Made by a program: the position numbers and the translations under genes
Notes under the pieces: generated by a model
What the model was told of the DNA's origin: nothing
Seen by the model: the letters and a program-made list of their open reading frames with translations, nothing else
Databases searched by the model: none
Origin: Natrinema halophilum
GTDB taxonomy: Archaea; Halobacteriota; Halobacteria; Halobacteriales; Natrialbaceae
Reading direction: 5' to 3'
NCBI RefSeq assembly: GCF_013402815.2
Contig: NZ_CP058601.1
Location: 1,736,001-1,800,000, forward strand
DNA length: 64,000 nt
Shown here: piece by piece, positions 6,538 to 34,207 of the stretch
Layout: each line of letters starts with the position of its first letter
How positions within the stretch are numbered: position 1 is the first letter of the stretch

Positions 6538-9462
6538 TCAGTGTGCTGGTTTAGCCGCAACCGGTGCGACCGTGTTCGTGGTCTCGTCTGCCGTCGCTCC
6601 ATCGTCGGATGAACTGGAGTTACCCGAATCGGTACTGCCGTCCGTTTCGTTGCCGCCAGTCTCGTTCCCACCCGTTTCGTTGCCGCCCGTCTCATTGTTC
6701 GGGGGACTCTCGACTTCCTCGAGGGAGACGTCGATCGACTCGCCGTTTACCACTGCAGTCTCGGGGACGGCCGTCTGGCCGCTGTAGTACGTCGGCTCTT
6801 GGCCACCGGTCGAGAGGACCGTCGCGGTATAGTTGCCGGTCGCCTCGACGCTACTGTCGGTGTATCCGTCCTCGACGCTGAGTTCGTCGTTCGTCGCGTA
6901 CGGGACCGTCACCTCGAAGGAGCCATCATCTGCAAGCTCCGCTTGCTGCCTGTAGATGAACGTCCGACCGGTATCGGTCTCGAGTTCGACTGCGACCACC
7001 GCCGTTGCGGTACCGGCGTCGATCCCAGCTGCATCGTTGACGCTTCCCGTAATCGTCGCACCTTCGACGCGTTCGAACGTCTTTACCGAGGAAACGACGT
7101 GCGCGTCCCACATCGGTGTTCTGAGCCCCTGGAAGACCTGGTTGTTGGTGCGAGCCTGCGTGAGCCCGTCCGAAATTGCTTGCGTCTGATTCGTCCAGCC
7201 GGTTTCCCTGAGCCCCACCGAATGGTGTGGCCGAACCTGTCCCCCGACGGCCATACTGCCGACGATCGCGTAATTGTCGTTCTCGTGGACCAACCGATAG
7301 TGTTCCATCCCGGTTGCATCCTGGAGATACAGCGACGACATCGTCGTATTGTCGTAGTTCGAGTTCGCGCTTGGCAGCGTTCGTGACTGATTCTCTCCGA
7401 GCTGGAACTGCTCGCCACCGTAATAGTGACTGTAATCCGGTCCGGTCCACTCCGTGATCGCGTTGAACTTTCCGCTGGCCATCTGACTGTCGATCATTAC
7501 GTAGCGCATTTCCTCTTGCTCGCTCGAGTCGTTGCCCGACACCGACTGTCGGAGTTCCTCGGTCGACCGACCGACGACGGGCTGGTCCTCGGAAATACCG
7601 TCGAGGATCAGTTCCGCCCGCTCTTCGGACTGGGCAGTCAGGAACGCAGACGACGTTCTGGCGTTCTGCTGGAACGGGTTCGAATGTGGAATCCGCTCCC
7701 CCTGTGTCGTTATCAGGTGGCCGTAGTCCCACCACGACATCACACCATAAGCACCCTCGGGGTATTCGTAGTCACCATCACCGGGCGTGTAAGTCCCGTA
7801 GTAGTCGAGTTCGTCTCCGTTGTTCGCCCCGCCGTAGTTCCCCGGCGTGGGCGTATTGTCTTTGAGCCAGTGGGTCGACTCCTCCCAGAGCATCGCGTCG
7901 GACTGCGGACCCGTCGCCTCCGCGTGATCCCAGGCAGTCGCCTGCGCCAGCGGCGGAAGAAGCGGCGCGAACAGGAGGAGGACGACGAGGAAGACGACGA
8001 TAACCTGGTAGGTTTCTACCTGCTTGACGGACTCGAGACTGCTCTCGAGATCCAGATCGAAGAGTTGGGCGAGTTCGGAGACGAACGCCGCATTGACGAT
8101 CGCGACCGCGAGTACGAGGTAATACATGAAGCGGACCTGCGTCGCGGCCATGCTGATCAGGAAGAGTGTCCAGACAATGACGAGCGTGTGTTCGGTGCGA
8201 TAGTTCCGGCCGAGCAGCGGCCGAATCGCAAGGAAGGCCAGTCCCGCGAGCATCGTGTAGAACGCACTGCCAAACTCGGCGAAGACAGTGTTGAAGAAGT
8301 TATCCGGCGGCTGGGCCTCGACGATGGTGAGGGTGCCCGTACTTGGGTTAAGCGGGAGCAAGCGACTAGTGAGGTTTCCAACGAGCGTGTTGAAGAGACT
8401 AGGTAGCGCAAGCCACATGACGGCCAAGACAGCGATGATAATGCCCCCGACCGCTGCTGGGTAGTAGTGGCGCTCGAGGCCGCGTTTGTTCCACTCGCGG
8501 GCGAGCCAGGCCATAAAGAGACAGCCAGCCGCCACGAAGAGGGCGGCCAGAGGCTGAAGGAAGCTAAAACTCGTCGTGCTGAAACCCGGTTGTTCGATAA
8601 GCAGCATCGTCAAAAACGCAGTTAGACCGAAACTCACCACGCCGGTGAAGGCGATATGATCCGGAGAGATTCCGCGGACGTAGTCGAGAATAAGTTGGAT
8701 GGTAAAGAAGATCCCGAAAATACCGATCAGCAGGATACCAGCAGGCCAGACCCAGATGTACAGTGTCAGTGCAAGGCCAGCAAGTGCGCTATAAATGGCT
8801 GGTGTACGGAGAGCGGTCCAGTCTCGGTCGACGACCAGTTCGTAAACCGGTTTTTCACGTTCGCCCACGGTGAGGGCAACCATCATCGCAACGACAGCAA
8901 TCGCCATGAACAGTACCTCCCCGATGTGGTGATCGAGTTGGCCTACCGTCGAACGCGCGAGGAATTGTCCCTTCGTAAGTGCGAGAACGAGAACTGAGAC
9001 GATTCCACCGAGCGTTCCCCCGAGGCGCCGTCCCGCATAAAAGACGGGGACTGCTACGAGCGCAGCCATAATCGGGATGGAGAGTAGCGATACCGCATAC
9101 AGCGTCTCGGCCGATGGGTCGCCGAGGCCGACGATCATCGCCACAGTGACGATGAGCTGGTCGTACAGCGTCCCGAACTGGCCGACGTAGTTGCCGGTCG
9201 GGAACCCAGTCCAGACCTCGTAGGGCATCGTGTGGGGATAGTTCTCGGCCGTCCAGTTGATCGTTCGCCAGTGATACCACGAGTCGATCCCCGCGAGTGC
9301 AGGTGTGCCGTCGTTGGTAACGAATCGGTCGTACGATTGGGTTCGTACCCAGACCATAAACAGCATCACGAGCCCGATAACGGGAAGGTGATACCAGTCC
9401 CGCCACGACTCGAGGACAGAGGTTACAGCCCCCTCCTCAACGTGTTCGGTGTCTGTACTCAT
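6538..9462 (-). CDS. aglB: Oligosaccharyltransferase AglB (STT3 family)
   Basis: 974 residues. It transfers the lipid-linked glycan to Asn in N-X-S/T sequons of exported proteins on the outer face of the membrane. An N-terminal cytosolic lead is followed by many membrane segments up to about residue 520. The first external loop has GIDSWYHWR (the acidic metal-binding motif), and the soluble C-terminal half has the catalytic WWDYG signature at residues 577-581, within GVMSWWDYGHLITTQGERIP. The tail is Asn/Gly/Thr-rich (four near-copies of NETGG) with a terminal Ser-rich stretch. Start at 9462 (MSTDTEHVEE) is chosen over an in-frame ATG 24 nt upstream because the longer lead has no support. Its neighbourhood is the expected agl glycan island. 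Confidence 0.96.
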   Translation of the reverse strand: MSTDTEHVEEGAVTSVLESWRDWYHLPVIGLVMLFMVWVRTQSYDRFVTNDGTPALAGIDSWYHWRTINWTAENYPHTMPYEVWTGFPTGNYVGQFGTLYDQLIVTVAMIVGLGDPSAETLYAVSLLSIPIMAALVAVPVFYAGRRLGGTLGGIVSVLVLALTKGQFLARSTVGQLDHHIGEVLFMAIAVVAMMVALTVGEREKPVYELVVDRDWTALRTPAIYSALAGLALTLYIWVWPAGILLIGIFGIFFTIQLILDYVRGISPDHIAFTGVVSFGLTAFLTMLLIEQPGFSTTSFSFLQPLAALFVAAGCLFMAWLAREWNKRGLERHYYPAAVGGIIIAVLAVMWLALPSLFNTLVGNLTSRLLPLNPSTGTLTIVEAQPPDNFFNTVFAEFGSAFYTMLAGLAFLAIRPLLGRNYRTEHTLVIVWTLFLISMAATQVRFMYYLVLAVAIVNAAFVSELAQLFDLDLESSLESVKQVETYQVIVVFLVVLLLFAPLLPPLAQATAWDHAEATGPQSDAMLWEESTHWLKDNTPTPGNYGGANNGDELDYYGTYTPGDGDYEYPEGAYGVMSWWDYGHLITTQGERIPHSNPFQQNARTSSAFLTAQSEERAELILDGISEDQPVVGRSTEELRQSVSGNDSSEQEEMRYVMIDSQMASGKFNAITEWTGPDYSHYYGGEQFQLGENQSRTLPSANSNYDNTTMSSLYLQDATGMEHYRLVHENDNYAIVGSMAVGGQVRPHHSVGLRETGWTNQTQAISDGLTQARTNNQVFQGLRTPMWDAHVVSSVKTFERVEGATITGSVNDAAGIDAGTATAVVAVELETDTGRTFIYRQQAELADDGSFEVTVPYATNDELSVEDGYTDSSVEATGNYTATVLSTGGQEPTYYSGQTAVPETAVVNGESIDVSLEEVESPPNNETGGNETGGNETGGNETDGSTDSGNSSSSDDGATADETTNTVAPVAAKPAH

Positions 9463-9633
9463 TAGGTTGCACCAGACCAAAGCCAAGAATAAGCCTTGTC
9501 ATATACTCGCGGTTATTTTGGACCGGTCTAGCAACAGATTGGATACGCCGACTGTTCGATTGAGATTACTAACACGGAAGGCGCTCACGGTATTGGGTAG
9601 AGTAGCTGGTTTCAGTAGAAACCGTATCTCTGA

Positions 9634-10179: not shown

Positions 10180-11754
10180 ATGGAAATACTCGTAATCGGG
10201 CTTGACGGTCTTTCGTATAATATGTTGGACCGTTTTGACGTTTCATTTCCCTATTTGGATTCTGTGAGAGAACAGGGAGTTTCCGGTGACTTGATGAGCG
10301 TCGACACGCCGACGACGATTCCAGCGTGGACTTCGTTTGCGACGGGAAAGGATCCCGGCAGTCACGGTGTCCACAATATGAATCAGGTGTCAAGCGAGTA
10401 CGAGTACGGGCCAGTGAAACCTAATACGAGTGATGCAGCAGTGTACGATTTTCTCGACGACGCTCTCTTTCTCAATCTTCCAGCCTCCACAGGTCGTATT
10501 CCCTGCGCAGACGGTACGCTCGTCGAGTCGTCGTTGCTCGAGAAGACGAAAGCGGAGATGGTCCCCGAACCGTTGCGCGACCTCGATACCTACGAGGCGT
10601 ACAATCCGATGCACGACCACTCGAAGAAGCAGCGACCGAACGTCTACCGTGACCACCTCCGTGACATTATCGCGTCTCGGGAGCGGTTCGCGCGGGAAGC
10701 CTTCGAGACGCACGACCCGCGGTTCGGCTTCGTACTGTTCTCGGCAACTGACTGGGCCGGACATATGCTCTCGAAGCTCACTTCCGAGGCAAAACGCGAA
10801 GAATTCTATCGAACAATTGTCGAAGACATCGGCAAAGCAGTCGAAGAACTCGCCGAGTTGGGGGAAAACGTCGTGCTGATGAGTGACCACGGCTTCGAGT
10901 ACAAACACCATACGATCCACCTCGCTGACTGGCTACACGAACAGGGCTACCTCTCAGTAACCTCAAACGACGATAGCAAGAGTCACGGTGTCGTCGACCG
11001 CCTCGCTGACCGAACGGTTGAATTCGGTGTATCGACCGCACAATCGTTGTCGAGACGGTCCGATCGACTCTACGACTTCTTCCGGTTAGTCCACAACCGG
11101 CTCCTCGGGAGCGGCCTCGGCGACCGGATTCACGAGGCCTCGACGCCGGACGTCGACTACCCCGAATCGACAGCGTGGCAGCTCCGGTACGGCTGTCTAT
11201 ACCTCAACGACGACCGCTTCGAAAGTCCGAAGGTGAGTGCCGACGAACGGGAGCAACTCCAGCGCGAGCTCGTCTCCGGCCTCCGTGAGCTGACCGTCGA
11301 CGGCGAGCGGATCTTTCGTGACGTACTCACTCCCGAGGAGGCCTATGCCGACCCCAGCACCGAGATGCCAGACGTGATCTCACGGCCTGCATCCGGCTAC
11401 CACGCGATCACCCACTGGTCACCGACCGGCGGCTACACGAGTCCGACCGAGAACTTCGAACACAGATACCGTGGTCTCATCGCTGCCACGGGACCGCTAT
11501 TCGGCACTGGCGAAATCGAGGGAATGTCTATCGTTGATTTGCTACCGTCGCTGCTCGCGGCGATGGGTGAGCCGCTCTCGCCGGAATTCGACGGAACGGT
11601 CCAGTCCGAACTGCTAGCGGACGAGCCGGCTGTCGAGTACCTCGATTCGGATGCGATTCCAACTCCACAGGTGCGAGGCGAGAGCCGAGCAGAGCAGGCA
11701 GAGCGCGAGGCGGTCGTCGAGGAGCGACTTGCCGACCTCGGGTATATGGAGTGA
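10180..11754 (+). CDS. AP-superfamily phosphodiesterase/nucleotide-pyrophosphatase-like protein
   Basis: 524 residues of the type I phosphodiesterase branch of the alkaline phosphatase superfamily. Metal-binding Asp9 lies in VIGLDGLSYN. The nucleophile region is TTIPAWTSFATGKDPGSHGVHN, with a Thr nucleophile as in phosphodiesterases. The second metal site is SDHGFEYKHHTIHLADWL, and a later histidine is in GYHAITHWSPTGGY. There is no signal peptide, so it is probably cytosolic. It may hydrolyse or transfer a phosphodiester on a lipid-linked glycan or nucleotide sugar; the substrate is unknown. It ends in RLADLGYME, the C-terminal motif shared by the other AP enzymes and the APS kinase in this island. 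It stands at the head of the sulfation block. Confidence 0.85.
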   Translation: MEILVIGLDGLSYNMLDRFDVSFPYLDSVREQGVSGDLMSVDTPTTIPAWTSFATGKDPGSHGVHNMNQVSSEYEYGPVKPNTSDAAVYDFLDDALFLNLPASTGRIPCADGTLVESSLLEKTKAEMVPEPLRDLDTYEAYNPMHDHSKKQRPNVYRDHLRDIIASRERFAREAFETHDPRFGFVLFSATDWAGHMLSKLTSEAKREEFYRTIVEDIGKAVEELAELGENVVLMSDHGFEYKHHTIHLADWLHEQGYLSVTSNDDSKSHGVVDRLADRTVEFGVSTAQSLSRRSDRLYDFFRLVHNRLLGSGLGDRIHEASTPDVDYPESTAWQLRYGCLYLNDDRFESPKVSADEREQLQRELVSGLRELTVDGERIFRDVLTPEEAYADPSTEMPDVISRPASGYHAITHWSPTGGYTSPTENFEHRYRGLIAATGPLFGTGEIEGMSIVDLLPSLLAAMGEPLSPEFDGTVQSELLADEPAVEYLDSDAIPTPQVRGESRAEQAEREAVVEERLADLGYME

Positions 11755-11891
11755 CGCTCTCGACGTTCAGTCTCCGCCGAGAACCACTCGGCGTTGACCC
11801 GACGACCACTGCCATCCCATCCATCAACCACTACTGGCTCACCTCGCAGAGCTTATAGGTGGGCGTCAGAAGAGGTACTAGCGACAACCGC

Positions 11892-12593
11892 ATGGTCAAC
11901 GAGTCAGAGTTCGAGTCGATACAGAGTCGTAGCCAGCAGCCACACGAAGCCGTCGACCTGGAAACAGTGTTCGAGTCGGCATCGGTCGTCATTCCGACCG
12001 CACGGGAGCGAAACTTCACGGCCGAAAGCCTCCCGAGCTGGATTGATCCGATTATCGCCACCGAGGAGGGTCTCAACGTCGCTCGAAACCGGGGGATCGA
12101 ACGGGCCGACGGAGAGTGGATCGTCCTCGTCGACGACGATGTGACGTTCCCGACTCGACTCACTGCGTGGCTGATCGACAGCATGCATCCGCTACATCTG
12201 GCCGGACTCGAAGACTACTGGCCGATGGACGGCATCCTCGGCCGGTATATGGTGTTCCACAGATCGCTCTGGGAGCAGATCGGCGGTTTCGACGAGTCGA
12301 GACCACACGGTGGGGACACGGATTTCGTCATCCGATGTCGGAACACCGGTGCATCGGTCGTGCGACTCCCCCGTCGGCTGATTCCCCACCATGATGCCGC
12401 CGGGGAGTTTACTACGACCCAACACGTCGAGTGGCTGTGGTATCTCGTCCGACGACACCCACGTCAGATGGTGCCGAAGGCGGCGAAACTCCTACTGCGG
12501 AAACTCGGACTCCTCTCGCCACGCCGTGGCACGTACCCCGACGGCTGGGAAAGTGCTGTCTGGCGCGTCCCCGAGGAGGGTGACGAAGAATGA
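11892..12593 (+). CDS. Family 2-like glycosyltransferase
   Basis: 233 residues of GT-A fold. There is a short N-terminal strand (SASVVIPTARERN), GLNVARNRGIERADGEWIVLVDDDV with the DDD metal motif, then FDESRPHGGDTDFVIRCR, the GGDTD acceptor-site segment of GT2 enzymes. It probably adds a sugar to a lipid-linked oligosaccharide at the inner face of the membrane. The protein is short for GT2 and the N-terminal strand region looks abridged (the usual SxNxxxxL part is missing), so the donor pocket may be unusual. Start at 11892 follows the TATA-like cttatagg at 11850. The stop overlaps the next ATG (ATGA), giving one operon with the sulfatase-like gene. Confidence 0.85.
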   Translation: MVNESEFESIQSRSQQPHEAVDLETVFESASVVIPTARERNFTAESLPSWIDPIIATEEGLNVARNRGIERADGEWIVLVDDDVTFPTRLTAWLIDSMHPLHLAGLEDYWPMDGILGRYMVFHRSLWEQIGGFDESRPHGGDTDFVIRCRNTGASVVRLPRRLIPHHDAAGEFTTTQHVEWLWYLVRRHPRQMVPKAAKLLLRKLGLLSPRRGTYPDGWESAVWRVPEEGDEE

Positions 12594-14041
12594 CGAACGT
12601 CCTGCTGATCGTTATGGACAGCGTTCGTGCGAGAAACACCTCCCTGCACGGCCACACACACGAAACGACACCGTATCTGTCCGAACTCGCCAACGAGGCT
12701 ACCGTCTACGAACAGGCCCGCAGCCCAGGAACGTGGAGTCTTCCCAGCCACACGAGCATCTTTACTGGGTTCCACGTCCTCGAGCACGGAATCACGCGGG
12801 CGCGACACAAACTCGAACCCGGTCACACGATCTTCGAAGAACTCAACGACAACGGGTATACGACGGGTGTGTTCTCCGAAAATACGTGGATCACCGATAT
12901 GGACTGTGGACTCCGTGATGCGTTCGACACCGTCGAGGGGGCTCGGAACCTCCTGTTCCCAGACGCTATCGATCCCTCGAACTTCGTGCTCTCGGAGGGA
13001 CAGGGACAGTACACGCAATTCCTCCGTCGCTGTCTCGACCGCGATGACACGCTTCAATCACTCGCCAACGGTGCGTTCACAAAACTCGCGTGGGACTATC
13101 CGCAACTACTGCCGGATCGGTTCACCTCCTCGACGCCAGCCGAGGTGTACGGCGATCTATTCCTCGACTGGCAGGCCGAGCAGTCGGGACCGTGGGCAGC
13201 GACGATTAACTTCATGGACGCCCACCTGCCGTACCTCCCGGACGCGGAGCACGACAAATGGGGCGGCAAGCGTCTCCGGGCGCTCCAAGACGAGATGGAC
13301 GATCAGGTCTGGGAGTTCAACGGCGGAAAGCGACCGTGGTGGCAACGGAAGGCCCTGGAGGGGCTGTACGACGGGACGATCCACCAGATGGACACACAGA
13401 TCGAACGGATCGTTCGAAGGCTCCGTGAGCGCGGCGTCCTCGACGATACCCTGCTCGTGGTTACCAGCGACCATGGCGAAGGATTCGGCGAACCGAGCCG
13501 TATCCGTGGTGACCGAGACAGCCCACAGCCGAACGCACGCGTCGCCGCCCACGGTGCCGGAATCCACGAAGTGCTCTGTCACGTCCCGCTGCTCGTCCGC
13601 CCGCCGGGCGGTGGTGTCGGCGACCGCGTCGACGAACCGGCGACGCTCACCCAGTTCCCGACCGTGGTAAGGGAAACGCTCGCAGGCACCGCGGCGTCGT
13701 TCATCCCCGACGAGCCGGTCGTGGTTTCCTCACACGGCCTCGAAGAGCCGATGGAGGAACGGGCGTCTCGGTATGCCGGTGATCTCTACCGGTTCAACGG
13801 TGACTGTCGAGCGGTGTACGAGTCCGACGGGGAGACGGTTCGCAAGTTCCTCTCGTGGCGTGACAAGCGGCGACGAGTCGATGTCGCCGATGCGTTCGCG
13901 TCCTGGCTCGCGTCGGATTCGGACGACGACGTCGTCGACGAGCGATGCGACTCGATAACGGATCGTGGCGTGCGAAGGGACTCCGATGCCGAAGTCGACG
14001 ATGCGACTCAGAAGCGACTCGAGGACCTGGGGTATATGTGA
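12590..14041 (+). CDS. Sulfatase-fold (AP superfamily) protein, Ser-type
   Basis: 483 residues. The N-terminal metal Asp10 is in LLIVMDSVRARN. The segment equivalent to the sulfatase C-x-P-S-R signature is SPGTWSLPSHTSIFTG, with Ser50 at the nucleophile position. A C-terminal metal site TSDHGEGFGE follows, then AHGAGIHEVLCHVPLLV. Classical sulfatases need Cys (or Ser) converted to formylglycine; no maturase is visible here, so phospho- or sulfo-transfer by the Ser itself is also possible. It is coupled by ATGA to the upstream glycosyltransferase and sits 123 bp before the sulfate-activation genes. It ends RLEDLGYM. No signal peptide is seen, so the site of action is probably cytosolic. Confidence 0.85.
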   Translation: MTNVLLIVMDSVRARNTSLHGHTHETTPYLSELANEATVYEQARSPGTWSLPSHTSIFTGFHVLEHGITRARHKLEPGHTIFEELNDNGYTTGVFSENTWITDMDCGLRDAFDTVEGARNLLFPDAIDPSNFVLSEGQGQYTQFLRRCLDRDDTLQSLANGAFTKLAWDYPQLLPDRFTSSTPAEVYGDLFLDWQAEQSGPWAATINFMDAHLPYLPDAEHDKWGGKRLRALQDEMDDQVWEFNGGKRPWWQRKALEGLYDGTIHQMDTQIERIVRRLRERGVLDDTLLVVTSDHGEGFGEPSRIRGDRDSPQPNARVAAHGAGIHEVLCHVPLLVRPPGGGVGDRVDEPATLTQFPTVVRETLAGTAASFIPDEPVVVSSHGLEEPMEERASRYAGDLYRFNGDCRAVYESDGETVRKFLSWRDKRRRVDVADAFASWLASDSDDDVVDERCDSITDRGVRRDSDAEVDDATQKRLEDLGYM

Positions 14042-14164
14042 CAGATGCATACAATATGTGGGAAATCGTTGATAAAACCGAGCAGCCATGGTTGTATTGG
14101 TAGATGTAGCCTCAATACGGATGAATCACAGCACTTGTTACGTTTCAGCTCAGGGTGATAAACG

Positions 14165-15316
14165 ATGATCCAACCACACGGCAACACTCTCGTCGACAGG
14201 GTCGTCACTCCACAGAGGGCCGAAGAGATACAGACCGGTTTTGACGACCTCTTTACTGTCGAACTCGACTGGAACCTCTTTTTCGACTTCGCAAACCTCG
14301 CCCAGGGCGTCTACAGCCCGCTCAATGGGTTCATGTCTCGCAACGACTTTATGAAAGTTGTCAACGATATTACGCTCGAAAGCGGCGTCCCATGGCCGCT
14401 TCCGGTCGTCCTCGATGTCGACGCCGAAACGGCAAACGATGTCAAGCCAGGCGAGAGGATCGGGATCACAGTATCTAACGGGACACCTGTCGGGATTTTA
14501 GACGTTGATACCGTCTACCGCTACAACGAAGACGAGGTCTGTACTCAACTGTTCGGAACCACCGACGACGACCACCCCGGCGTGCGGACCATCCAGTCGA
14601 AGGCGCCGTTCTTCATTGGTGGGCCGATCAAAGCGTTTCCGGATGCGATCACCCGGCGGGGAGACCACGACCTCACACCAAAGGAAACGCGCGTCCTGTT
14701 CAAAAAACACGGCTGGGATACGGTCGTCGGCTTCCAGACGCGGAACGTTCCCCACCGTGCGCACGAGTATCTGCAGAAATCGGCTCTCGAGCACGTCGAC
14801 GGGCTTCTAATCCAACCCAAGATCGGAGAAAAGAAATCGGGTGATTACATGAACGGAGCTATTTTGCAAGGGTACCGAACGCTAATCGATAACTACTATC
14901 CGACCGACAGGGTTGCACTTGCGATGTTCAAGTCCAGAATGTGGTACGCCGGGCCACGAGAGGCCATATTCGATTCGATTGTTCGTAAAAACTATGGTTG
15001 TACCCACTTCATTATCGGACGAGACCATGCAGGCGTCGGGAACTACTACGGCGATTTTGAAGCACAAGAACTGTTCGACGCCGTCGGCAATATCGGGATT
15101 GAACCGTTGTATTACCACTATGCCTTCTACTGTCATATTTGTGATGGTATCGTCTCGGAGAAAATTTGTCCACACGACAACGAATACCACCTCGAGCCGA
15201 GCGGTACGAAACTCCGAAATATGCTGTCCGACGGGAAAAAACCGCCCGCAGAATTGATGCGACCGGAAGTTGCCGAAACCGTATTAACACTTGGCGACGT
15301 ATTTGTCGAAAACTAA
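14165..15316 (+). CDS. sat: ATP sulfurylase
   Basis: 383 residues. It makes adenosine 5'-phosphosulfate (APS) and pyrophosphate from ATP and sulfate. Visible signatures are QTRNVPHRAHE (the nucleotide-binding His pair at H197 and H200), IGRDHAGVG, and a C-terminal SGTKLRNMLSDG, all in standard order for the Sat/MET3 family. The protein is full length without a fused APS kinase domain. Its TAA overlaps the ATG of cysC by one base, so the two are translated together to give PAPS. No sulfite or APS reductase lies in the window, and the neighbours are a sulfotransferase and glycan genes, so the product is probably used for sulfation rather than assimilation. Confidence 0.95.
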   Translation: MIQPHGNTLVDRVVTPQRAEEIQTGFDDLFTVELDWNLFFDFANLAQGVYSPLNGFMSRNDFMKVVNDITLESGVPWPLPVVLDVDAETANDVKPGERIGITVSNGTPVGILDVDTVYRYNEDEVCTQLFGTTDDDHPGVRTIQSKAPFFIGGPIKAFPDAITRRGDHDLTPKETRVLFKKHGWDTVVGFQTRNVPHRAHEYLQKSALEHVDGLLIQPKIGEKKSGDYMNGAILQGYRTLIDNYYPTDRVALAMFKSRMWYAGPREAIFDSIVRKNYGCTHFIIGRDHAGVGNYYGDFEAQELFDAVGNIGIEPLYYHYAFYCHICDGIVSEKICPHDNEYHLEPSGTKLRNMLSDGKKPPAELMRPEVAETVLTLGDVFVEN

Positions 15317-15936
15317 TGTTTACACTTTGGTTTATGGGTCGGCCCTCAGCAGGGAAATCTACTCTGGCGAGCCATGTCGAGGACCAACTTGTCGAAGCCG
15401 GCTATCCGATCGAAAATCTCGATGGAGATGACATTCGGAAACACCTCCACCCTGATCTTGGGTTCTCTCGAGAGGACAGGCGAACAAACAATCGGCGAAC
15501 TGCGTACATCGCAAAACTGCTCAATCGTAACGATATCCCTGTTATTGTCGGGATGATTACCCCGTTCCGTGACTCCCAGGAACAGGCCCGCGACATTATC
15601 GAAGACGAGGGGGAGTTCGTCCAAATTTATGTGAAGTGCTCCGTTGAGGCCGCCGAAGAGCGCGACCCGAAAGGGCTCTACCAACAGGCTCGCGAGAAAA
15701 ACATCGAAAAGTTCACCGGTGTGAACCACCCGTTCCAGGAACCGCTCAATCCTGAGATCATCGTCGACACCGAAGCGCAGTCCATCGACGACTGTGTCGA
15801 CGACGTAATGACGCAACTGGAGACACTCGGTGTGCTCGATGAGCGTCTCGACGACGACTACTCGTTTTCGATCACCCGCTCGGAAGAACAGGACATCACC
15901 GAACGACTCGAAGAACTCGGCTATCTCGAAGAGTAA
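15316..15936 (+). CDS. cysC: Adenylylsulfate (APS) kinase with sulfatase-like C-terminal tail
   Basis: 206 residues. It phosphorylates APS to PAPS, the sulfate donor for sulfotransferases. The P-loop is GRPSAGKST at residues 8-16, followed by NLDGDDIRKHL, the LGFSREDRRTNNRR lid, and the FTGVNHPFQEPLNPEIIVDT substrate region. The ATG overlaps the sat stop. After the kinase core a 25-30 residue acidic tail ends in ERLEELGYLEE, nearly identical to the ends of the sulfatase-fold proteins here (for example ARERLEELGYLE at 25709). That tail is not part of ordinary CysC and suggests a shared docking or assembly signal. It is the last gene of the plus-strand block and converges with the DUF4910 gene 12 bp away. 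Confidence 0.94.
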   Translation: MFTLWFMGRPSAGKSTLASHVEDQLVEAGYPIENLDGDDIRKHLHPDLGFSREDRRTNNRRTAYIAKLLNRNDIPVIVGMITPFRDSQEQARDIIEDEGEFVQIYVKCSVEAAEERDPKGLYQQAREKNIEKFTGVNHPFQEPLNPEIIVDTEAQSIDDCVDDVMTQLETLGVLDERLDDDYSFSITRSEEQDITERLEELGYLEE

Positions 15937-15948
15937 ACGACAGCGATC

Positions 15949-17256
15949 TCAGGCAGAGCGATCGGAGTCGGCAAGTGGATCAGCGGTCGTGATGAGTCCA
16001 CAGGCCTCGAACTCTTCGAGATAGCTTCTGACAAACTCGTAGTCAAGGTCGAACTTGTCGGCAATATCGAAGGCGGTGTGTTCTCCATCGAGGTAGCGCA
16101 GAATTCGGTGGCGAAATTCGTGGATGTTCCCCGTGTCCCTCGCCTCGATCTCGTTGGGATCGATATACAGATCGTACTTCGGATTTGCGAGACTCGGCAT
16201 CCCCTCGAAGGTCCGCATCGGAACGAAGTCCGATTCCAGTACTTCGATTACCCGTTCGAGATACGAACAGTAACGTTCGAGCCGATGCTCCGAGATGATC
16301 TCCGGGTTGTCGAAATGTGTGTGATATTCTTCGTAGGGGAACCGTGTGACAGATACTGTCGGAATCTCGAACCCTGGCGATTCGAAGACTATCTCGTCGT
16401 TGCCGATCTGACTCCGGAATGGCCCTACTTCACCGTCGTCGACAGTCCTATTCAGCACGTAGGTTGCAACCCGGTCGAGCCTTGTCTCGCCGGTAAAAGT
16501 TCGCTGGAGCAGGATTCGGTTATCGTTGCCCGGCATTTCGAGGAAGATTCCGTACTGGACGTCGTCAATCTTGTCGCCGTTTGTAGCAAAATACGCTGCA
16601 GAACCGACCAACTCCTGGACGATGAGAAACGTATACGAATAGGTAAGCGACTCCCGCTGCTGGAGGCGGTTCATCAGCTCACAGCCAACAGCGACCCCGG
16701 CGAGATCGTCATTTGCCATCCCTGTATGATCGAGGTGGGCTGCCAGCAGGATCGTTTCGTCGCGCTGGCCCTCGATGTGGTGTTCGCCCACCAGCATTTC
16801 GTCATCTTCGAACTCTGTTTCGATACAGACCTCGTACGTCTCGCTATCGAGGGAATCGACAGTCTCCTGACGGGCACAGAACCCCCACTCGCTGTCCCAC
16901 GGGCGGTAGTTCTGTCGGAAGTGCCACGGGATCGCATCCGACATCTCCGAGTGGGTGTGAACGTGATCGAGGAGTTCCGACTTCGTGATCGTGGCCTCGA
17001 ATGGCTCAGAGTAGGAGATCAGATGCAGCGGGTGGTCGTCGTAATCAATAATTCGGTCGCCATCGACCGCAACGTACGCGTCATTGACGGACCATTTCTG
17101 TGGAACGACCCACGAATCCCAGATTTCGGTGCCGCTTTCGTAGGCGTGGATATCGAGATTGAGTTTGTACTCGTCTATATAGTCGAGACACTGTTCGTAG
17201 TCATCGGTGACGAATCCGCGATTAGTCAGGTACAACTCTTCGACGAGTTCTTTCAT
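15949..17256 (-). CDS. DUF4910-type aminopeptidase-like protein with C-terminal winged helix
   Basis: 435 residues. The centre resembles M28-type zinc peptidases: LLAAHLDHTGMANDDLAGVAVG supplies His and Asp ligands, then VQELVGSAAYF (Glu-Leu) and HFDNPEIISEHRLERY with a late His. The last 60 residues form a winged helix-like domain (HRILRYLDGEHTAFDIADKFDLDYEFVRSYLEEFEACGLI). Such proteins recur in polysaccharide and modified-sugar gene clusters; their reaction is not known to me and may be hydrolysis of an amide on a sugar rather than a peptide. Its start overlaps the stop of the sulfotransferase (17253-17256), so the two are co-translated, and this tie to sulfation is its main functional clue. 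Confidence 0.75.
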   Translation of the reverse strand: MKELVEELYLTNRGFVTDDYEQCLDYIDEYKLNLDIHAYESGTEIWDSWVVPQKWSVNDAYVAVDGDRIIDYDDHPLHLISYSEPFEATITKSELLDHVHTHSEMSDAIPWHFRQNYRPWDSEWGFCARQETVDSLDSETYEVCIETEFEDDEMLVGEHHIEGQRDETILLAAHLDHTGMANDDLAGVAVGCELMNRLQQRESLTYSYTFLIVQELVGSAAYFATNGDKIDDVQYGIFLEMPGNDNRILLQRTFTGETRLDRVATYVLNRTVDDGEVGPFRSQIGNDEIVFESPGFEIPTVSVTRFPYEEYHTHFDNPEIISEHRLERYCSYLERVIEVLESDFVPMRTFEGMPSLANPKYDLYIDPNEIEARDTGNIHEFRHRILRYLDGEHTAFDIADKFDLDYEFVRSYLEEFEACGLITTADPLADSDRSA

Positions 17257-18470
17257 CGGTTAGTACCTGTAAGTCGTTCGACGGCAGCTCGGCAGTCGGC
17301 CGCAAGCTCCGGTTCGAGAAAGAAACTTCGATGGAGACGGCTGTCGAGACTCGCAAAGAGCTCGTCGTCAGCCTGAAGCAGTCGGTGCCGAGCCTCCTCC
17401 TGACCGAGCGTTCCGGTTGTCTCGGCAGCCGTCGACTCGCCGTCGTATGCCAGTATCCACTCTGCGAGTTCGTCGGTCGGGATGGTGGGCGGATCGAGTA
17501 GCTCCGCGTCGGTGAAGCCCGTCTCTGAGACGTACTTGTGTTCGTAGTCGAACAACGCCATCTCGGAGAAACACAACCGCTCGATGTAGCTGACCACGCG
17601 CTCGTTGAGTTCCTGTTCCCACTTCCGAACCGAATCGGTGTTGAACGACGGCTCTTCATCTTCATACGACGTGTTCTGGATCCATGGCTCGCCGCGGCCG
17701 TCGGTGAATTCGCCAGGGTTTAGGATCGATTTATCGAGTTCAATGTCGAGGAAATCACACATTCGCCGCGACGTTTCCTCCGGCGTCGTGACGAGGTCCT
17801 CGTATCGAACCACGAGCACGTCGTCGGAGAGACGCTCGTCGTGTGTCGCATACTGGTGGGTGAGCAGTGCCAGTTTCCGCCACTGGCGAGCGAGGAACAG
17901 CCACGGATATTTCGCGTCACGGCTATATTTCGAAGCACAGACGGCTCGCGGATCTCGAACCACGAGAACGAATTTGCTGTCAGGAACCGCATCTTTCACC
18001 GCTGGTGCAAATTCTGTCGTCCACACCTCCTTCGTTCCGATCCACGCTTCGTCGCCGGTTCCGTACTGGGCCGGAACTTCCGCAAGTAGTTGCTCAAAGA
18101 CATCCGAGAAGGTATCTCCGGTCGTGTGCTCTGGGCCGAGTGCGTTAGCAATGTAGGGAGAGAACGGTTCACAGTGGTCGACAATACGAGACGCCAGTTC
18201 TTCGGAATCGCGGTCGAAAGTCCTCTCGAACGTGGTTGACTGTATAGCGTCGTACAGACCGAGTGCTTTCTCGTCCGCAAAATATGCACCCAACGGATCG
18301 TAGGGCTCAAAGTCGACGCTTTGCTCGGCGGCGACCGAATCCCGTACTGCATTGTAAAACGGACGAATCGGATCCGAGGCACAGACGATATCTTCGTGTG
18401 TGTCAAGCATCCGAGCTAAAAGCGTCGTTCCGGACCGAAACATTCCAAAAACGAACAAATGGCCCCTCAT
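17253..18470 (-). CDS. PAPS-dependent sulfotransferase
   Basis: 405 residues. The N-terminus FVFGMFRSGTTLLARML (residues 6-22) is the 5'-phosphosulfate loop and VLVVRDPRAVCASKYSRD (around residue 170) is the 3'-phosphate site; VRYEDLVTTPEETSRRMCDFL follows as in carbohydrate sulfotransferases. It should transfer sulfate from PAPS to a sugar of a lipid-linked or protein-linked glycan. Sulfated sugars are established on Halobacterium salinarum S-layer and archaellin glycans. Lack of a signal or membrane segment puts it in the cytosol. It is the promoter-proximal gene of a two-gene operon with the DUF4910 protein, facing sat-cysC. Confidence 0.92.
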   Translation of the reverse strand: MRGHLFVFGMFRSGTTLLARMLDTHEDIVCASDPIRPFYNAVRDSVAAEQSVDFEPYDPLGAYFADEKALGLYDAIQSTTFERTFDRDSEELASRIVDHCEPFSPYIANALGPEHTTGDTFSDVFEQLLAEVPAQYGTGDEAWIGTKEVWTTEFAPAVKDAVPDSKFVLVVRDPRAVCASKYSRDAKYPWLFLARQWRKLALLTHQYATHDERLSDDVLVVRYEDLVTTPEETSRRMCDFLDIELDKSILNPGEFTDGRGEPWIQNTSYEDEEPSFNTDSVRKWEQELNERVVSYIERLCFSEMALFDYEHKYVSETGFTDAELLDPPTIPTDELAEWILAYDGESTAAETTGTLGQEEARHRLLQADDELFASLDSRLHRSFFLEPELAADCRAAVERLTGTNR

Positions 18471-23552: not shown

Positions 23553-25466
23553 CTATTTATATCCGAGATGTTTAAGCCGTTGTTCGACCTCCCCCGATGT
23601 CTGCACCTCCTCATTAGGAGTAGATGAAAGTATAGCTCTATGTGTGCTGATATGGTTCTCAATGAGGTCTTCAATTTCTTTCACCAGATATTGTGGTGGA
23701 CAGGTGTTGTTTAAAGGTTCTCCAGAAACTCTGGAAGAGGTGTCATAATAACGCACATCAATTGGCCCATTTTCTACTTGAGATTTGGTCGGGTATTCTG
23801 GATAGTTATCATTGTATGTGTATACAGCTTTTACTGAATCTTTCTCGAGCGAAATAGTATACCAGTCTGGGCGCACGCGCTCGGTAATGCGAGGCATATC
23901 TGCTTTTGAAGTATTCTGCCAAGCAACACCATCAGATTGTTTTGGCGGATCTTCGCCAACAAGTTCTGCGATGGTTGGGAGAAAATCAATTATATCAGCC
24001 TCATCTGGAATATTGATATCAGTGTCATCTGGTGGTTTGATTATCATGCCTGGACGGATATTCGCATCTGTGACACTGTTATGTCCAGCAAACTCTCGCT
24101 CAAGGAAGTCTTCGCCGTGGTCTCCAGTTATTATTAGGAACGATTCAGAGTATAAACCAATATGTTTTAGATAGTTAATTAATCGATTGATCTGGTTCGC
24201 TGCATAACTGACAGACTGATAATAGTAGGATTTAATCAAGTTGATTTCATCGTCAGACATTTTTGGAGGGTTTTCAATTACTTCGAGATAATTATCGACA
24301 CTCCGGTAAGAATTTAGAGTTTCTAACGTGTCAAAATCAACTGGTGAAATCTTAGAAGAAACGGTAGGGAGGTATGGATAGTGGGGGTCAAACAAATGAA
24401 GAAAATAGAACAACCGTTTCGAGTTTTCTTCGTGGTCCCTATCTAACCATTGAATCACCTGATCGACGATATCTGCGCCGTCATAATTTGAGTTATTCCA
24501 AGAAATTGGTTTGTATGCGTATCTATGCATACCTCGTCCGAATCCATATTCAACACCTGTTTTGTCTTTTGTTACGCAACCCGAACACTTATACATATTG
24601 TCACTAAGTATTTCAGGTATTGTAACTAGGTCGGGATGTATTCCGTACTGTCCTTTATTTTCTGACCCAGTCCCAACATATCCATGTACGCCTGGGTGTA
24701 CTCCAGTGAACATAGATGCATGTGCTGGTCGGGTCCAGTGTCCCTGTGTACGTGGCTCGCTCGGTATTACTGCATCATCTCCTAGTAACTCCAGTACCGG
24801 CTCAAACTTATCGAGGGCATCATAGCGAAACGTATCAACCGAGATTAAAAATATAGGTGTTCCGTCTTGACCACGTGGTACGGGCAAAGAAAGTTGAGGG
24901 TTTTGATTTGCTTTCCAGTCATACTGTCTGATTTTCTCCGGAAGCACAAACAAACTGCCGACATCGTTCGAAATTTCTTTACGAAGTGTGATATGCGCCT
25001 CTATTGCAGGTTCTGAAACAGAGATTGATACTGGCAGGGTATTTCCCTCATGAAGAGGGGCATCCTGTATATTATATTCTACTGATTTTTCTGAGGTTTG
25101 GCCATTGGGATGAGTAAATATAGCTTCAAGTAATATAGCATCTGCATTTATGATATCAACTATTTCAGCATCTACCCGATTAAACTCTTCTGGAGGGGCT
25201 ATTGAGACAGATTGCTCTCCATTGGAGTGTGTGAATATTGGATAGAGGTCCTTTTTGGTCTGTAGGCTTCTCCTTACTGCAAAATATTCATCATCGGGTC
25301 TTGGCTCAACTCTCACATAGCATTTCGGGCTATTACTTCTGATCCATGAAGGAGCGTATACTCTATCATTTATTTCACGGAAATCAGATGGTGAAAGTGA
25401 CCGTTCAATACCATCTCGAGTATGTCTAGCCCCCCATTTTAGTAAGTGTATAAGACTTCCGACCAT
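23553..25466 (-). CDS. Large sulfatase-fold protein with extra N-terminal domain, Thr-type
   Basis: 637 residues. Roughly the first 200 have no recognised domain. The AP-superfamily part starts at TPIFLISVDTFRYDAL (metal Asp), with GHWTRPAHASMFTGVHPGVHGYVG (Thr at the formylglycine position), ITGDHGEDFLEREFAGHNS (second metal site) and a tail ending RLKHLGYK. The ATG at 25466 is preferred to a TTG nine bases upstream, and the TATA-like tract lies 16-31 nt before it. Codon use and GC are much lower than in the neighbours, and the protein is less acidic, both signs of recent transfer. It may desulfate or otherwise modify a glycan; the substrate is unknown. Confidence 0.8.
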   Translation of the reverse strand: MVGSLIHLLKWGARHTRDGIERSLSPSDFREINDRVYAPSWIRSNSPKCYVRVEPRPDDEYFAVRRSLQTKKDLYPIFTHSNGEQSVSIAPPEEFNRVDAEIVDIINADAILLEAIFTHPNGQTSEKSVEYNIQDAPLHEGNTLPVSISVSEPAIEAHITLRKEISNDVGSLFVLPEKIRQYDWKANQNPQLSLPVPRGQDGTPIFLISVDTFRYDALDKFEPVLELLGDDAVIPSEPRTQGHWTRPAHASMFTGVHPGVHGYVGTGSENKGQYGIHPDLVTIPEILSDNMYKCSGCVTKDKTGVEYGFGRGMHRYAYKPISWNNSNYDGADIVDQVIQWLDRDHEENSKRLFYFLHLFDPHYPYLPTVSSKISPVDFDTLETLNSYRSVDNYLEVIENPPKMSDDEINLIKSYYYQSVSYAANQINRLINYLKHIGLYSESFLIITGDHGEDFLEREFAGHNSVTDANIRPGMIIKPPDDTDINIPDEADIIDFLPTIAELVGEDPPKQSDGVAWQNTSKADMPRITERVRPDWYTISLEKDSVKAVYTYNDNYPEYPTKSQVENGPIDVRYYDTSSRVSGEPLNNTCPPQYLVKEIEDLIENHISTHRAILSSTPNEEVQTSGEVEQRLKHLGYK

Positions 25467-25481
25467 TGGAAGCAATTCTCT

Positions 25482-25708: not shown

Positions 25709-27049
25709 TCACTCGAGATAGCCGAGTTCTTCTAACCGCTCTCGTGCGTTGTCGGTGACATCATCGGGGACACCGCTGTCGCCGTCCTCGAGGAGTCTTC
25801 CTGGGATTTTCGAGCGATATGCATGCCGTTTGGCCGGATTGTCGACCGACAGATCGTGCTGTTCGTCGGGATCGACATCGAGATCGTAGAGCTCTGCGTC
25901 TTCCCCGATGTCGATGTATTTCCAGCCCGCTGCCCTGACGGCGACGACGGGTACGTCGTCAGCGAACGAGCCACGCGTAATCGGCTCACGGGTGGTCGAC
26001 TCCCGAAGATCCTTGCCGAGAAATGCCGCCGGTGGCTCGACGCCGTGGAGCCGACAAACTGTCGGGGCGATGTCGAGCAACTCCCGTTGTTCAGTGACCC
26101 TGGACGGGAGTTCAGGCGTTCCGTCCGGCGTTTTCATGAACATCGGGACCTGAACCAGTTCGTCGTACGGCCGGTTCCGATGGAAATACAGTCCGTGTTC
26201 GCCGAACTCCTCGCCGTGATCCGCCGTGAGGACGACCGAGGTGTCGTCCCACAATCCATCATCCGCCAGTCCGTCGAACAGCCGAGAGACGTGTTGTGAG
26301 GTGTACCGGATCGCCGAGTCGTACAAATCGACGAGCAACGTGCGCTGGTCATCGTCGATCGTCTCCGGTTCGACGCCAGCACTTGCCATCAGATCGAGAA
26401 TCTCCGATCGGCCGAGGTCGGGGGCATAGGCTGGTGAATCCGCATTGATGGCGTACGGGCGGTGAGGGTCCATATAGTGAACCCACAGACAGAACGGTTC
26501 CTCGGCCTGTCGGACGAACTCGAGTGCTCGATCAGTCGTGGTTTCTGCACTCTCGAAGACGGCGACCTCGTGGATGAGCGACGCCGGAACCACGGTCTCC
26601 TGAATTGTACGAGCGACCTCGAACAGCCCGGTTCGCTGGAGGGTTGGACGAACCGTATCGAACAGCCGTCGAGCGAGCTTGTTCGTCGTCGGGACGGCTT
26701 CGTCGTGACTCGCCTGCCCGACGAAATCCTCGTAGACGTCCATCCCGTAAACGTCGTCGAACTTGGAGGCAAAAAACGTATTCGAGTGGATCGCACCAGT
26801 TCGAACATTGTCAGGCAGGGCCGATCCGAGTGTGGGACCGGACCGGACGGCGCTGTCGCCATCGTATCGAGACGTGAGAAGTGACGGGAGCGAAATACCG
26901 GTGTACGTTCCGTTGACGATCGCTTGGTCGAACGTCACACCACCGGCTTTGAGGAGCCGGTCGGCAGCCGGGAGCGTATCCCGATCGTAGCCGTATTGCG
27001 AGAGGTGGTCACGACGAACCGCATCAAGCGTGACGATAAGCGTGTTCAC
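25709..27049 (-). CDS. Sulfatase-fold protein, Ser-type
   Basis: 446 residues. Metal Asp9 is in LIVTLDAVRRDHLSQYGYDRDT. The active-site segment NGTYTGISLPSLLTSRYDG has Ser53-Leu-Pro-Ser in the C-x-P-S-R frame, with Leu replacing the Arg/His. PFCLWVHYMDPHRPY follows, then LTADHGEEFGEHGLYFHRNRPYDELVQVPMFMKTP, the classical second metal site. It ends ARERLEELGYLE, nearly the same as the APS kinase tail. It is transcribed divergently from the tandem pair at 27148 and 28619, with 98 bp between. It is most like bacterial choline/N-sulfoglucosamine-type sulfatases in layout, but the replaced active-site residues make the reaction uncertain. Confidence 0.85.
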   Translation of the reverse strand: MNTLIVTLDAVRRDHLSQYGYDRDTLPAADRLLKAGGVTFDQAIVNGTYTGISLPSLLTSRYDGDSAVRSGPTLGSALPDNVRTGAIHSNTFFASKFDDVYGMDVYEDFVGQASHDEAVPTTNKLARRLFDTVRPTLQRTGLFEVARTIQETVVPASLIHEVAVFESAETTTDRALEFVRQAEEPFCLWVHYMDPHRPYAINADSPAYAPDLGRSEILDLMASAGVEPETIDDDQRTLLVDLYDSAIRYTSQHVSRLFDGLADDGLWDDTSVVLTADHGEEFGEHGLYFHRNRPYDELVQVPMFMKTPDGTPELPSRVTEQRELLDIAPTVCRLHGVEPPAAFLGKDLRESTTREPITRGSFADDVPVVAVRAAGWKYIDIGEDAELYDLDVDPDEQHDLSVDNPAKRHAYRSKIPGRLLEDGDSGVPDDVTDNARERLEELGYLE

Positions 27050-27147: not shown

Positions 27148-28557
27148 ATGCGTAACGTCGTGTTGGTCTGTCTCGATGCGGTCCGGAAAGATGTCTTCGA
27201 CGAGTACGCGAGGCGACTGCGTACCCGGGCCGGCATCGAGTACACGCAGGCCAGAGCAGTCAGTGGCTGGAGCGTCCCAAGTCACGCCTCCATGTTCACC
27301 GGCACATTGCCACACGAACACGGGATCCACACGTTCCACCGCGACTTCTCCGGACTCACTCGCGAAGAGACGTTTCTTGATCGACTCCCCGACCACGAGG
27401 TACTCGGCGCGAGTGCGAACGTGTACGCGAGCGACGCGTTCGGATTCGACGAGTTGTTCGACGCCTATCGGAGCGTCTCCCCGGATCGACGGTTCCCGGA
27501 AGGGCTGGACGCCGAACGATGGGGACAGGAGGCTGACGAGACCGGGATGGCGCGGTACCTCGCGTTCCTACGGTCGGCACTCCGTCACGAGCGGCCCCTT
27601 CCGAGTGTCGCAAACGGTGTGCTCGTTGAACTCGACAACTGGCTCGCGGATGCCCCGTTCGAAAAACCGCTAGACGACGGGGCGAACATCGTCGCCCGTG
27701 AAGCGAAACGACTCGTCTCGGAGGCCACCGAACCGTTCGTGCTCTTCACAAACTTCATGGACGTGCACGGACCGTTGACTCCCGTTCGGTCGTACGACAG
27801 CAGTTTGTACGATGCGCGACCGTCATGGTCCTCACGAGCGTTCGACGGACGGGCCGTCGAACGGGGCGAGATCGACGAGATCAGGGACGATATTACGCAC
27901 CACCGGGAGCTGTATGCCGCCGCAACGGAGTACCTGGATCGGGTCGTCGACAACCTCGTCGACTGGCTTCACTCGAATACAAATAACGAAACGACGGTCG
28001 TCGTCACTGCCGACCATGGCGAAAACCTCGGGTACGAGGCTGATAGGCGACTGTTCGCCCACCGGAGCGGGCTCACCGAGGGGCTGCTGCACGTCCCGTT
28101 GCTCGTGTTGAACCCACCCGAGGTGATGGAGTCGACCGTCGACGACTACGTTTCCCACCTCCGCCTCGGCGAACTCGTGACCGGCCTCGCCACCGAAACG
28201 GTCCCAGACGTGACCGACGACGTGATCCCAGCCGAACGGATCGGCTTCAACGTCCCAGTCAACCCGAACGCGACACCACTCCGCGACGACGACCGTGCGA
28301 TACGCGTCGCCTACGAGGGTGACGCGAAGTATCAGTGGGACACCCTCGGCAACCGCCACCGGTACCGGCTGGATCCCGACAGACCATCGTGGCAGGAACG
28401 CGACGCCCAGGAGGTCGATATCTCAGGGTACGAGACGACGCTGTTCGAGGTCCCGATTGACGAGTATCGGAGTCGCGTCGAGACGTCATCGGCAGAACGG
28501 ACCGCGGCCGTTGACGACAGCGTCGAGGACCGACTCGCGGACCTCGGCTATCGCTGA
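27148..28557 (+). CDS. Sulfatase-fold protein, Ser-type (tandem paralogue A)
   Basis: 469 residues. The N-terminus VVLVCLDAVRKDVFDEYARR holds metal Asp10, SGWSVPSHASMFTGTLPHEHGIHTF has Ser42 at the nucleophile position, PFVLFTNFMDVHGPL and VVTADHGENLGYE complete the site, and it ends EDRLADLGYR. It is closely related to the next gene through its whole length (same opening, same VPSHASMFTG region, same PFDDGA/PLDDGA middle), indicating tandem duplication. No signal peptide, so probably cytosolic. It may act on a sulfated or phosphorylated glycan intermediate. The 61-bp gap to the next gene contains a possible separate promoter. Confidence 0.85.
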   Translation: MRNVVLVCLDAVRKDVFDEYARRLRTRAGIEYTQARAVSGWSVPSHASMFTGTLPHEHGIHTFHRDFSGLTREETFLDRLPDHEVLGASANVYASDAFGFDELFDAYRSVSPDRRFPEGLDAERWGQEADETGMARYLAFLRSALRHERPLPSVANGVLVELDNWLADAPFEKPLDDGANIVAREAKRLVSEATEPFVLFTNFMDVHGPLTPVRSYDSSLYDARPSWSSRAFDGRAVERGEIDEIRDDITHHRELYAAATEYLDRVVDNLVDWLHSNTNNETTVVVTADHGENLGYEADRRLFAHRSGLTEGLLHVPLLVLNPPEVMESTVDDYVSHLRLGELVTGLATETVPDVTDDVIPAERIGFNVPVNPNATPLRDDDRAIRVAYEGDAKYQWDTLGNRHRYRLDPDRPSWQERDAQEVDISGYETTLFEVPIDEYRSRVETSSAERTAAVDDSVEDRLADLGYR

Positions 28558-28618
28558 GGGCGACACGGGGGAACACGTCTCGAAGAGTACTTAGCAATTG
28601 ACTGATCTTCCACAGACA

Positions 28619-30013
28619 ATGAGGAATATCGTGTTACTGTGTCTCGACACAGTACGCAAAGACTTCTTCGACGAGTATGCCCCGCGACTCGTCGACCGGG
28701 CCGACGTCGTCTACGACGGCTGCCGGGCGGCAAGTTCGTGGAGTGCTCCAAGTCATGCCTCGATGTTTACCGGACAGCTCCCGAGCGAACACGGTGTCCA
28801 CGCGTTTCAACGGGATTTCTCGGTCGTCGATCGAGACGACACGTTCCTCGGTGAGCTTCCCGACTACCGGGCCCTCGGTGCGAGTGCGAACGTCTGGGCT
28901 GGCTCCTCGTTCGGGTTCGACACGCTGTTCGACAGCCTCTCGGACGTCTCGCCTGATCAGCGGTTTCCGGAGGGAATCGACGTGGCACGGTTCGGTCAGG
29001 AGACCGAAGCGGCCGGTCTCGCCCGACACCTCTCGTTCCTGCGGAGCGCGTTGGCACACGACTACCCGCTGAAGAGTCTCGCTAACGGTGCGGCAGTCCA
29101 ACTTGACCGGACGTTCCAGCGGCTTCCACTGCCTAAACCGTTCGACGACGGTGCCTCTCTCCTCGAACGGGAACTCATGACGCAGATAGAGTCATCGACG
29201 GAGCCGTTCTTCGGCTTCGTGAATTTCATGGACGCGCACGGCCCAGTCCACCACGCTCGCGGGTATGATCGCTCGCTCCATGACGCGCCGTTGTCGTGGA
29301 CCGCACGCACCGTCGACCTCAACGAACGCATTCAGACTGGCGACGAACAGACACTGGGATGGTACCGAGACCTGTACGGGACTGCGATTGACTACCTCGA
29401 CCGTCGCGTCGTCGACTTCGTCGACCGAATCCAGCGAGTCACAGACCGCAAGACGACCGTCGTCGTCACCGCAGATCACGGCAACGACCTCGCACTCACT
29501 GACGAACGATACTGGGGACACACAGCGACCCGACTTACGGAGGCACTCCTCCACGTGCCACTGGTCGTCCTCAATGCGCCGGGTGAGTACGAGGCGAGAC
29601 AAACAGAATGCGTCTCCCATCTCTCACTGCCGGCGTTGCTTGTCGGGATAGCCAACGAGGAGGTGCCGGATATCACCGGCGAGATGGTTCGCGCCGAACG
29701 GATCGGGAACAGCGGTCCGCCCGGCAAACTCGAAGCGGGCGACGTGCCGCCGGAAGAGAACATGGTGATCCGAGCGCTGTACGGCGAGGGCGAAAAGTAC
29801 GTCTGGGACCACCACGGGAGTGGTGCGACCTACAGGCTCGACCCCGACCGGCCCAGCTGGGAAACGAAAGCATCGGCCGATCTCGACGTCGATCAACTGG
29901 ATGCGGCCTTCGAGACAGATATTGAGACAATTGCAAAGCAAACCCGGTCTACGGACCCGCTCGATATCGACAACGGCACCGCGGACCGACTTCGGGAGCT
30001 AGGCTACCTGTGA
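28619..30013 (+). CDS. Sulfatase-fold protein, Ser-type (tandem paralogue B)
   Basis: 464 residues from ATG 28619, preferred over an upstream in-frame TTG because it aligns exactly with the start of its paralogue. Metal Asp10 is in IVLLCLDTVRKDFFDEYAPR, Ser42 in SSWSAPSHASMFTGQLPSEHGVHAF, then PFFGFVNFMDAHGPV and VVTADHGNDLALTDERYWGH, ending ADRLRELGYL. In the second metal site the usual Glu after HG is replaced by Asn (HGND versus HGEN in paralogue A), which may alter activity. Together with its upstream twin it forms a duplicated pair upstream of the flippase gene. Confidence 0.85.
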   Translation: MRNIVLLCLDTVRKDFFDEYAPRLVDRADVVYDGCRAASSWSAPSHASMFTGQLPSEHGVHAFQRDFSVVDRDDTFLGELPDYRALGASANVWAGSSFGFDTLFDSLSDVSPDQRFPEGIDVARFGQETEAAGLARHLSFLRSALAHDYPLKSLANGAAVQLDRTFQRLPLPKPFDDGASLLERELMTQIESSTEPFFGFVNFMDAHGPVHHARGYDRSLHDAPLSWTARTVDLNERIQTGDEQTLGWYRDLYGTAIDYLDRRVVDFVDRIQRVTDRKTTVVVTADHGNDLALTDERYWGHTATRLTEALLHVPLVVLNAPGEYEARQTECVSHLSLPALLVGIANEEVPDITGEMVRAERIGNSGPPGKLEAGDVPPEENMVIRALYGEGEKYVWDHHGSGATYRLDPDRPSWETKASADLDVDQLDAAFETDIETIAKQTRSTDPLDIDNGTADRLRELGYL

Positions 30014-33511: not shown

Positions 33512-33543
33512 ACTATAACAAGTAACCAGCGGATACCTCCACT

Positions 33544-34200: not shown

Positions 34201-34207
34201 CGATCCG

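Follow-up and report, generated by a model that had tools for sequence, protein, structure and literature searches.

The 64,000-nucleotide stretch of Natrinema halophilum DNA analysed here (the window) probably holds a dedicated module for PAPS supply and sulfation, set inside a surface-glycan (aglB/pseudaminic-acid) cluster. We hold this reading, together with the enzyme roles proposed here, with good confidence. Beside aglB, one cluster would encode the full PAPS supply together with a canonical sulfotransferase and transferases of the AP fold (Table 1). In the proposed route, Sat would convert ATP and sulfate to APS, and CysC would phosphorylate APS to PAPS, two activities that are certain at the level of the enzyme families. 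The convergent Sulfotransfer_3 enzyme may then transfer sulfate from PAPS to a surface glycan, either lipid-linked or nucleotide-linked, and the glycan acceptor would most likely be the N-glycan transferred by AglB. The Ser/Thr-type AP-fold proteins may be transferases of the Agl30/Agl31 kind that modify this glycan with sulfate or some other charged group, as their homology and their missing formylglycine (FGly) cysteine suggest. The DUF4910 protein would be a metallohydrolase, and our guess is that it trims an N-acyl group of the glycan.

Table 1. Features of the sulfation module and of the glycan cluster around it. Positions are those of the window, except for the CysD-like protein.
Feature	Position	Strand	Residue at nucleophile place; C-terminal tail	Evidence
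AglB oligosaccharyltransferase	6538..9486	-		PF02516, PF22627, PF18079
AP1, phosphodiesterase-type AP-superfamily protein	10180..11754	+	Thr (PTTIPAW); RLADLGYME	PF01663 4e-28
GT2 glycosyltransferase	11859..12593	+		PF00535 2.9e-6, partial domain match
AP2, sulfatase-fold protein	12590..14041	+	Ser in place of FGly Cys (WSLPSH, alignments); RLEDLGYM	PF00884 'Sulfatase' 5e-32
Sat, ATP sulfurylase	14165..15316	+		PF01747 2.7e-85; NCBIfam sopT above cut-off
CysC, APS kinase, 206 aa	15316..15936	+		PF01583 1.9e-52; apsK above cut-off
CysC C-terminal extension	15844..15933	+	linker, then helix ending RLEELGYLEE	sequence and AlphaFold
DUF4910/DUF2172/M28-like metallohydrolase	15949..17256	-		Pfam 4e-56
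PAPS-dependent sulfotransferase (Sulfotransfer_3)	17253..18470	-		PF13469 7e-29
AP3	23553..25475	-	Thr (HWTRPAH); RLKHLGYK	PF00884
AP4	25709..27049	-	Thr (TYTGIS); RLEELGYLE	PF00884 4e-41
AP5	27148..28557	+	Ser (GWSVPSH); RLADLGYR	PF00884
AP6	28598..30013	+	Ser (SWSAPSH); RLRELGYL	PF00884
AP7, short AP-fold protein	31769..32704	+	tail KLRALGYKA	PF00884 3.9e-4, below curated cut-off
Pseudaminic-acid-like pathway (cytidylyltransferase, FAH-like, PseG, formyltransferase, NeuB/PseI, PseC, LegB-like, PseB)	32855..40146	.		profile matches
Second STT3/AglB-like oligosaccharyltransferase	50330..52870	+		PF18079; TIGR04154 below cut-off
CysD-like protein	L021:1501-2784 (about 1.1014 Mb of genome C1)	-		PF01507

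An earlier note, made from the letters of the window, had described sat and cysC as overlapping by stop and start, a sulfotransferase–DUF4910 pair as converging on them, and AP-fold and GT2 genes as preceding sat. Pfam and NCBIfam searches bore out this layout, and also the oligosaccharyltransferase placed just upstream, which is AglB; its gene is divergent from the AP genes and lies 0.7 kb from the sulfation module. The true start of cysC is the ATG at 15316, which overlaps the sat stop as TAATG, and the end of the sulfotransferase gene overlaps the start of the DUF4910 gene by 4 bases. The characteristic motifs were intact in Sat (RNVPHRAH, matching RNxPHxxH, and GRDHAG) and in CysC (P-loop GRPSAGKST), as expected of a PAPS-synthesis pair with PF01747 and PF01583 domains. 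The PAPS loops of the sulfotransferase were also intact (RSGTT in the 5'-PSB, RDPRA in the 3'-PB), and this protein weakly matched NoeE and tyrosylprotein-sulfotransferase as well. The H/D/E/H residues of the DUF4910 protein align with structure 3k9t. The glycan cluster extends as far as 52.9 kb into the window, at least. It contains five further AP-fold genes beyond the interval of the earlier note, at 23553-32704, giving seven in the window, and also encodes Wzx-type flippases and a BacA-like protein. A gene for a WbuX/PseA-like N-acetyl sugar amidotransferase is found in pieces at 18852-19707, with frameshifts or stops; it is either a pseudogene or a product of sequencing errors.

The earlier note had proposed that sat and cysC supply PAPS for sulfation and had seen no sulfite, APS or PAPS reductase in the window. 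Indeed, no such domain was present among the window ORFs scanned; neither a sulfate transporter nor a PAP phosphatase was identified in the window, so that the 'self-contained' supply of the earlier note is unproven. A profile search of the whole 4.84-Mb genome returned a single PF01747-type Sat, the window's own. A CysH-type APS/PAPS reductase was sought genome-wide with PF01507, and only CysD-like and TtuA/Ncs6-like proteins were found; the same profile gives 167 bits to a real CysH-type protein in genome G286. The CysD-like protein has one Cys, and its sole solved relative found by a PDB match is sulfate adenylyltransferase subunit 2. Two sirohaem NirA/SiR-like proteins (NIR_SIR) are encoded in the genome, with ferredoxin-nitrite reductase as the best model at a score below its cut-off; they leave a little room for an APS- or PAPS-reducing step of an unrecognised kind. 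Another CysC-like protein, which is of PRK05541 type and has no tail of the kind described below, is encoded at L011:1417-1938 (-), where it adjoins a nucleotidyltransferase gene and a glutamine-amidotransferase-like gene. Weak PF01583 matches occur in nearly all haloarchaea and were at first read as CysC; they were discounted when the weak match of the source genome (L012) proved FtsY-like. A third contig of this genome matched a Natrinema plasmid with 83% identity across 19% of a 20-kb query, in keeping with a Natrinema host.

The distribution of sat was examined in 391 haloarchaeal genomes. Only 12 of them carried it, and a strong CysC adjoined sat in 10 of the 12. Its genus was represented by 22 genomes and its family by about 101, and among these the source genome was the sole Sat carrier; because Sat was absent from all other sampled family genomes (about 100), it is not core to the family. 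Most of the sat–cysC loci read adjoin sulfotransferase, AP-fold and/or glycan-assembly genes, the last including Wzx and glycosyltransferases. Sulfotransferase genes were found near sat–cysC in L003, L005/L068, L065, L066, L067 and L071, and AP-fold genes in L002/L070, L003, L065, L071 and L073. An aglB/OST gene lay in the fetched flank of 4 of the 11 independent loci outside the source genome (L003, from Salinibaculum, L071, L072 and L073), for which the chance is about 4e-7 to 3e-5, assuming random placement and flanks of roughly 8-10 kb. The layouts of the two Sat genomes without a paired CysC, L074 and L075, differ from those of the sat–cysC loci. In L074 (genome G286), which has a PF01747 Sat in common with the window, Sat is flanked by NIR_SIR (sulfite reductase) on one side and by a strong PAPS_reduct match (PAPS reductase) on the other, and there is no CysC. 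A longer APS kinase is encoded in about 19 other genomes, and PF01747 is missing from most of these; the enzyme measures 283-286 aa in L063, L076 and L077, and a Sulfotransfer_3 gene adjoins its gene in all three of these loci. A gene of about 290 codons is convergent on cysC in three loci (L003:11805-12677 (-), L006:11815-12693 and L066:10955-11824). A Pfam scan of the one in L003 identified it as a PHP-domain protein, which is possibly a PAP phosphatase recycling the by-product of the sulfotransferase.

Because the genome has one Sat and no CysH was found, because sulfotransferase and glycan genes neighbour sat–cysC, in many haloarchaea with cysC beside the sulfotransferase, and because the layout of L074 contrasts with this, we read sat–cysC as a PAPS supply for sulfation, as the earlier note did. 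This conclusion is well supported, and the pair most likely decorates surface sugars with sulfate rather than feeding sulfur metabolism. Assimilatory sulfate reduction, with a fortuitous location of the genes in the glycan cluster, would agree with the window Sat being the only one in the genome and with the presence of two NIR_SIR proteins. We nevertheless judge it very improbable, given the failure to find a CysH-type reductase in the genome, the rarity of Sat in the family, the repeated association of sat–cysC with sulfotransferases and with aglB across several lineages, and a haloarchaeal assimilatory operon of different make-up (NIR_SIR-Sat-CysH in L074). A surface glycan is probably the acceptor, and the N-glycan, as the earlier note had it, is likely but unproven: aglB lies near sat–cysC in five lineages, counting the source genome, but the Halovenus sat–cysC loci pair with a sulfotransferase and have no aglB in the flank. 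The Halovenus loci would suit PAPS use for a membrane glycolipid (S-DGD type) or for capsule or exopolysaccharide sulfation instead of the N-glycan. The Wzx-type flippases and Pse genes of the window also suit a surface polysaccharide, and lipid-linked oligosaccharides are substrates of related PF13469 enzymes, NodH among them (PMC11625862). With aglB so close to the module, and flanking sat–cysC at four other loci, a lipid or capsule acceptor seems a real though lesser possibility.

The earlier note had also taken the AP-superfamily genes for enzymes that remove or move the sulfate or a phosphate. The FGly cysteine (C-x-P-S-R) was sought in all seven window AP proteins and found in none, and the Arg that closes the formylglycine motif (C/S-x-P/A-x-R) was absent from the aligned sulfatase-type window proteins. 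These proteins have their fold and Pfam family in common with the S1 FGly sulfatases but lack the nucleophile Cys; because Ser or Thr stands in its place, they are unlikely to be classical FGly sulfatases. Among the AP-fold proteins characterised in haloarchaea, the nearest are Agl30 and Agl31 (VNG1056C and VNG1057C); these are N-glycan sulfotransferases encoded in the aglB cluster of Halobacterium salinarum, and each of them brings sulfation to Haloferax volcanii glycans (PMC11980604, 2025 mBio). The window AP proteins are like them in their AP fold, their aglB-cluster location and their LGY tail (LEDLGYL and LEELGYT in Agl30/Agl31), and a sulfation activity is predicted for them from these features. 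Transferase roles fit them better than sulfatase roles. Hydrolases that edit the glycan by releasing sulfate or phosphate would be consistent with the Sulfatase and Phosphodiest matches in Pfam and with the nearest solved structures, which are hydrolases; this is unlikely, with an FGly Cys in 0 of 7 proteins and characterised relatives that add sulfate (PMC11980604). AlphaFold modelled AP2 poorly, with a mean pLDDT of 54.

Sulfated N-glycans of Halobacterium have been known since the 1980s, and the earlier note had cited them, made via PAPS, as its precedent. This precedent failed at the supply step. In 13 genomes of genus g29 (G018, G094, G246 and others), the genus with the best S-layer match and probably Halobacterium, neither PF01747 nor a convincing PF01583 match was detected; therefore, sulfation in Halobacterium probably does not run on this kind of Sat–CysC supply. 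The Agl30/Agl31 paper nowhere mentions PAPS and does not name a source of activated sulfate (PMC11980604). The Agl30/Agl31 pathway, with no PAPS-type sulfotransferase reported and no sat or convincing cysC in the probable Halobacterium genomes, differs from the window cluster, which has both. The absence of Sat and CysC there raises a testable question, namely, what the sulfate donor for Agl30 and Agl31 is. The CysD-like protein is a possible candidate for an APS source in haloarchaea without Sat: it was found in 384 of the 391 genomes, and in the listed genomes with the highest scores its identity was 73-92%.

The window module resembles the rhizobial NodP/NodQ-NodH system (with NoeE) in its apparent logic. 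In both, an ATP sulfurylase and an APS kinase lie beside a Sulfotransfer_3 gene in a glycan-synthesis cluster, and window CysC matched NodQ by tblastn. The linkage of sulfate activation to a sulfotransferase that marks NodPQ-NodH is seen in the window and again at most haloarchaeal sat–cysC loci, where the acceptor would be a glycan. NodPQ is of the CysD/CysN type and duplicates a housekeeping set. Unlike NodPQ, the window set consists of a PF01747-type Sat and a free-standing CysC, with no duplicate PF01747 Sat in the genome. The likeness would thus be one of logic, with a different ATP sulfurylase and with added AP-fold transferases.

Finally, a C-terminal tail was shared by proteins of the module. 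The C terminus of CysC and of all seven window AP proteins reads [RK]LxxLGY, followed by at most three further residues. A DNA pattern search returned about 20 such C termini genome-wide vs about 0.4 expected from composition among 4,800 proteins. When six AP proteins were aligned, the tail residues L, L, G and Y were invariant, as were a few core residues, although the proteins compared with AP2 were only 23-28% identical to it. The carriers, including those at L020-L039, are mostly AP-fold proteins, plus CysC, the CysD-like protein and two small ribbon-helix-helix-like proteins (L035 and L036); because of the latter two, the tail is not confined to sulfate enzymes. The tail on the PF01507 protein was at first counted as that of a third PAPS enzyme and was dropped as independent evidence, the protein being CysD-like and CysD itself ending in -GYF. 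Translation of the primers published for cloning Agl30 and Agl31 yields HLEDLGYL and LEELGYT, so proven sulfotransferases carry the tail; one frame of the VNG1063H primer reads KELGYIE. Sat-linked CysC has an extension of about 30 residues ending in the LGY motif in most genomes, the exceptions being L008, L009 and L072 (no LGY) and L071 (MGY). In the AlphaFold model of window CysC, a low-confidence linker (178-186) is followed by a helix (189-201). LMELGYL is the natural C terminus of an APS kinase of the Archaeoglobus type (7yq0), and the tail of CysC could therefore be a terminal helix that has been repeated.

The shared tail weakly suggests a docking tag that physically couples APS kinase with AP-fold proteins; the suggestion stays weak because tails occur on unrelated proteins and because 7yq0 has a natural LGYL end. 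In an extended form that we regard as a long shot, the LxxLGY helix would dock APS kinase and AP-fold glycan sulfotransferases on a common partner and so channel PAPS (or APS), and haloarchaea without Sat and CysC, such as Halobacterium, would feed the same enzymes via the near-universal CysD-like protein. No match to the tail sequences appeared in the literature searched. Shared as it is by APS kinase, AP-fold proteins and proven sulfotransferases, the LGY tail offers a cheap handle for pull-downs.
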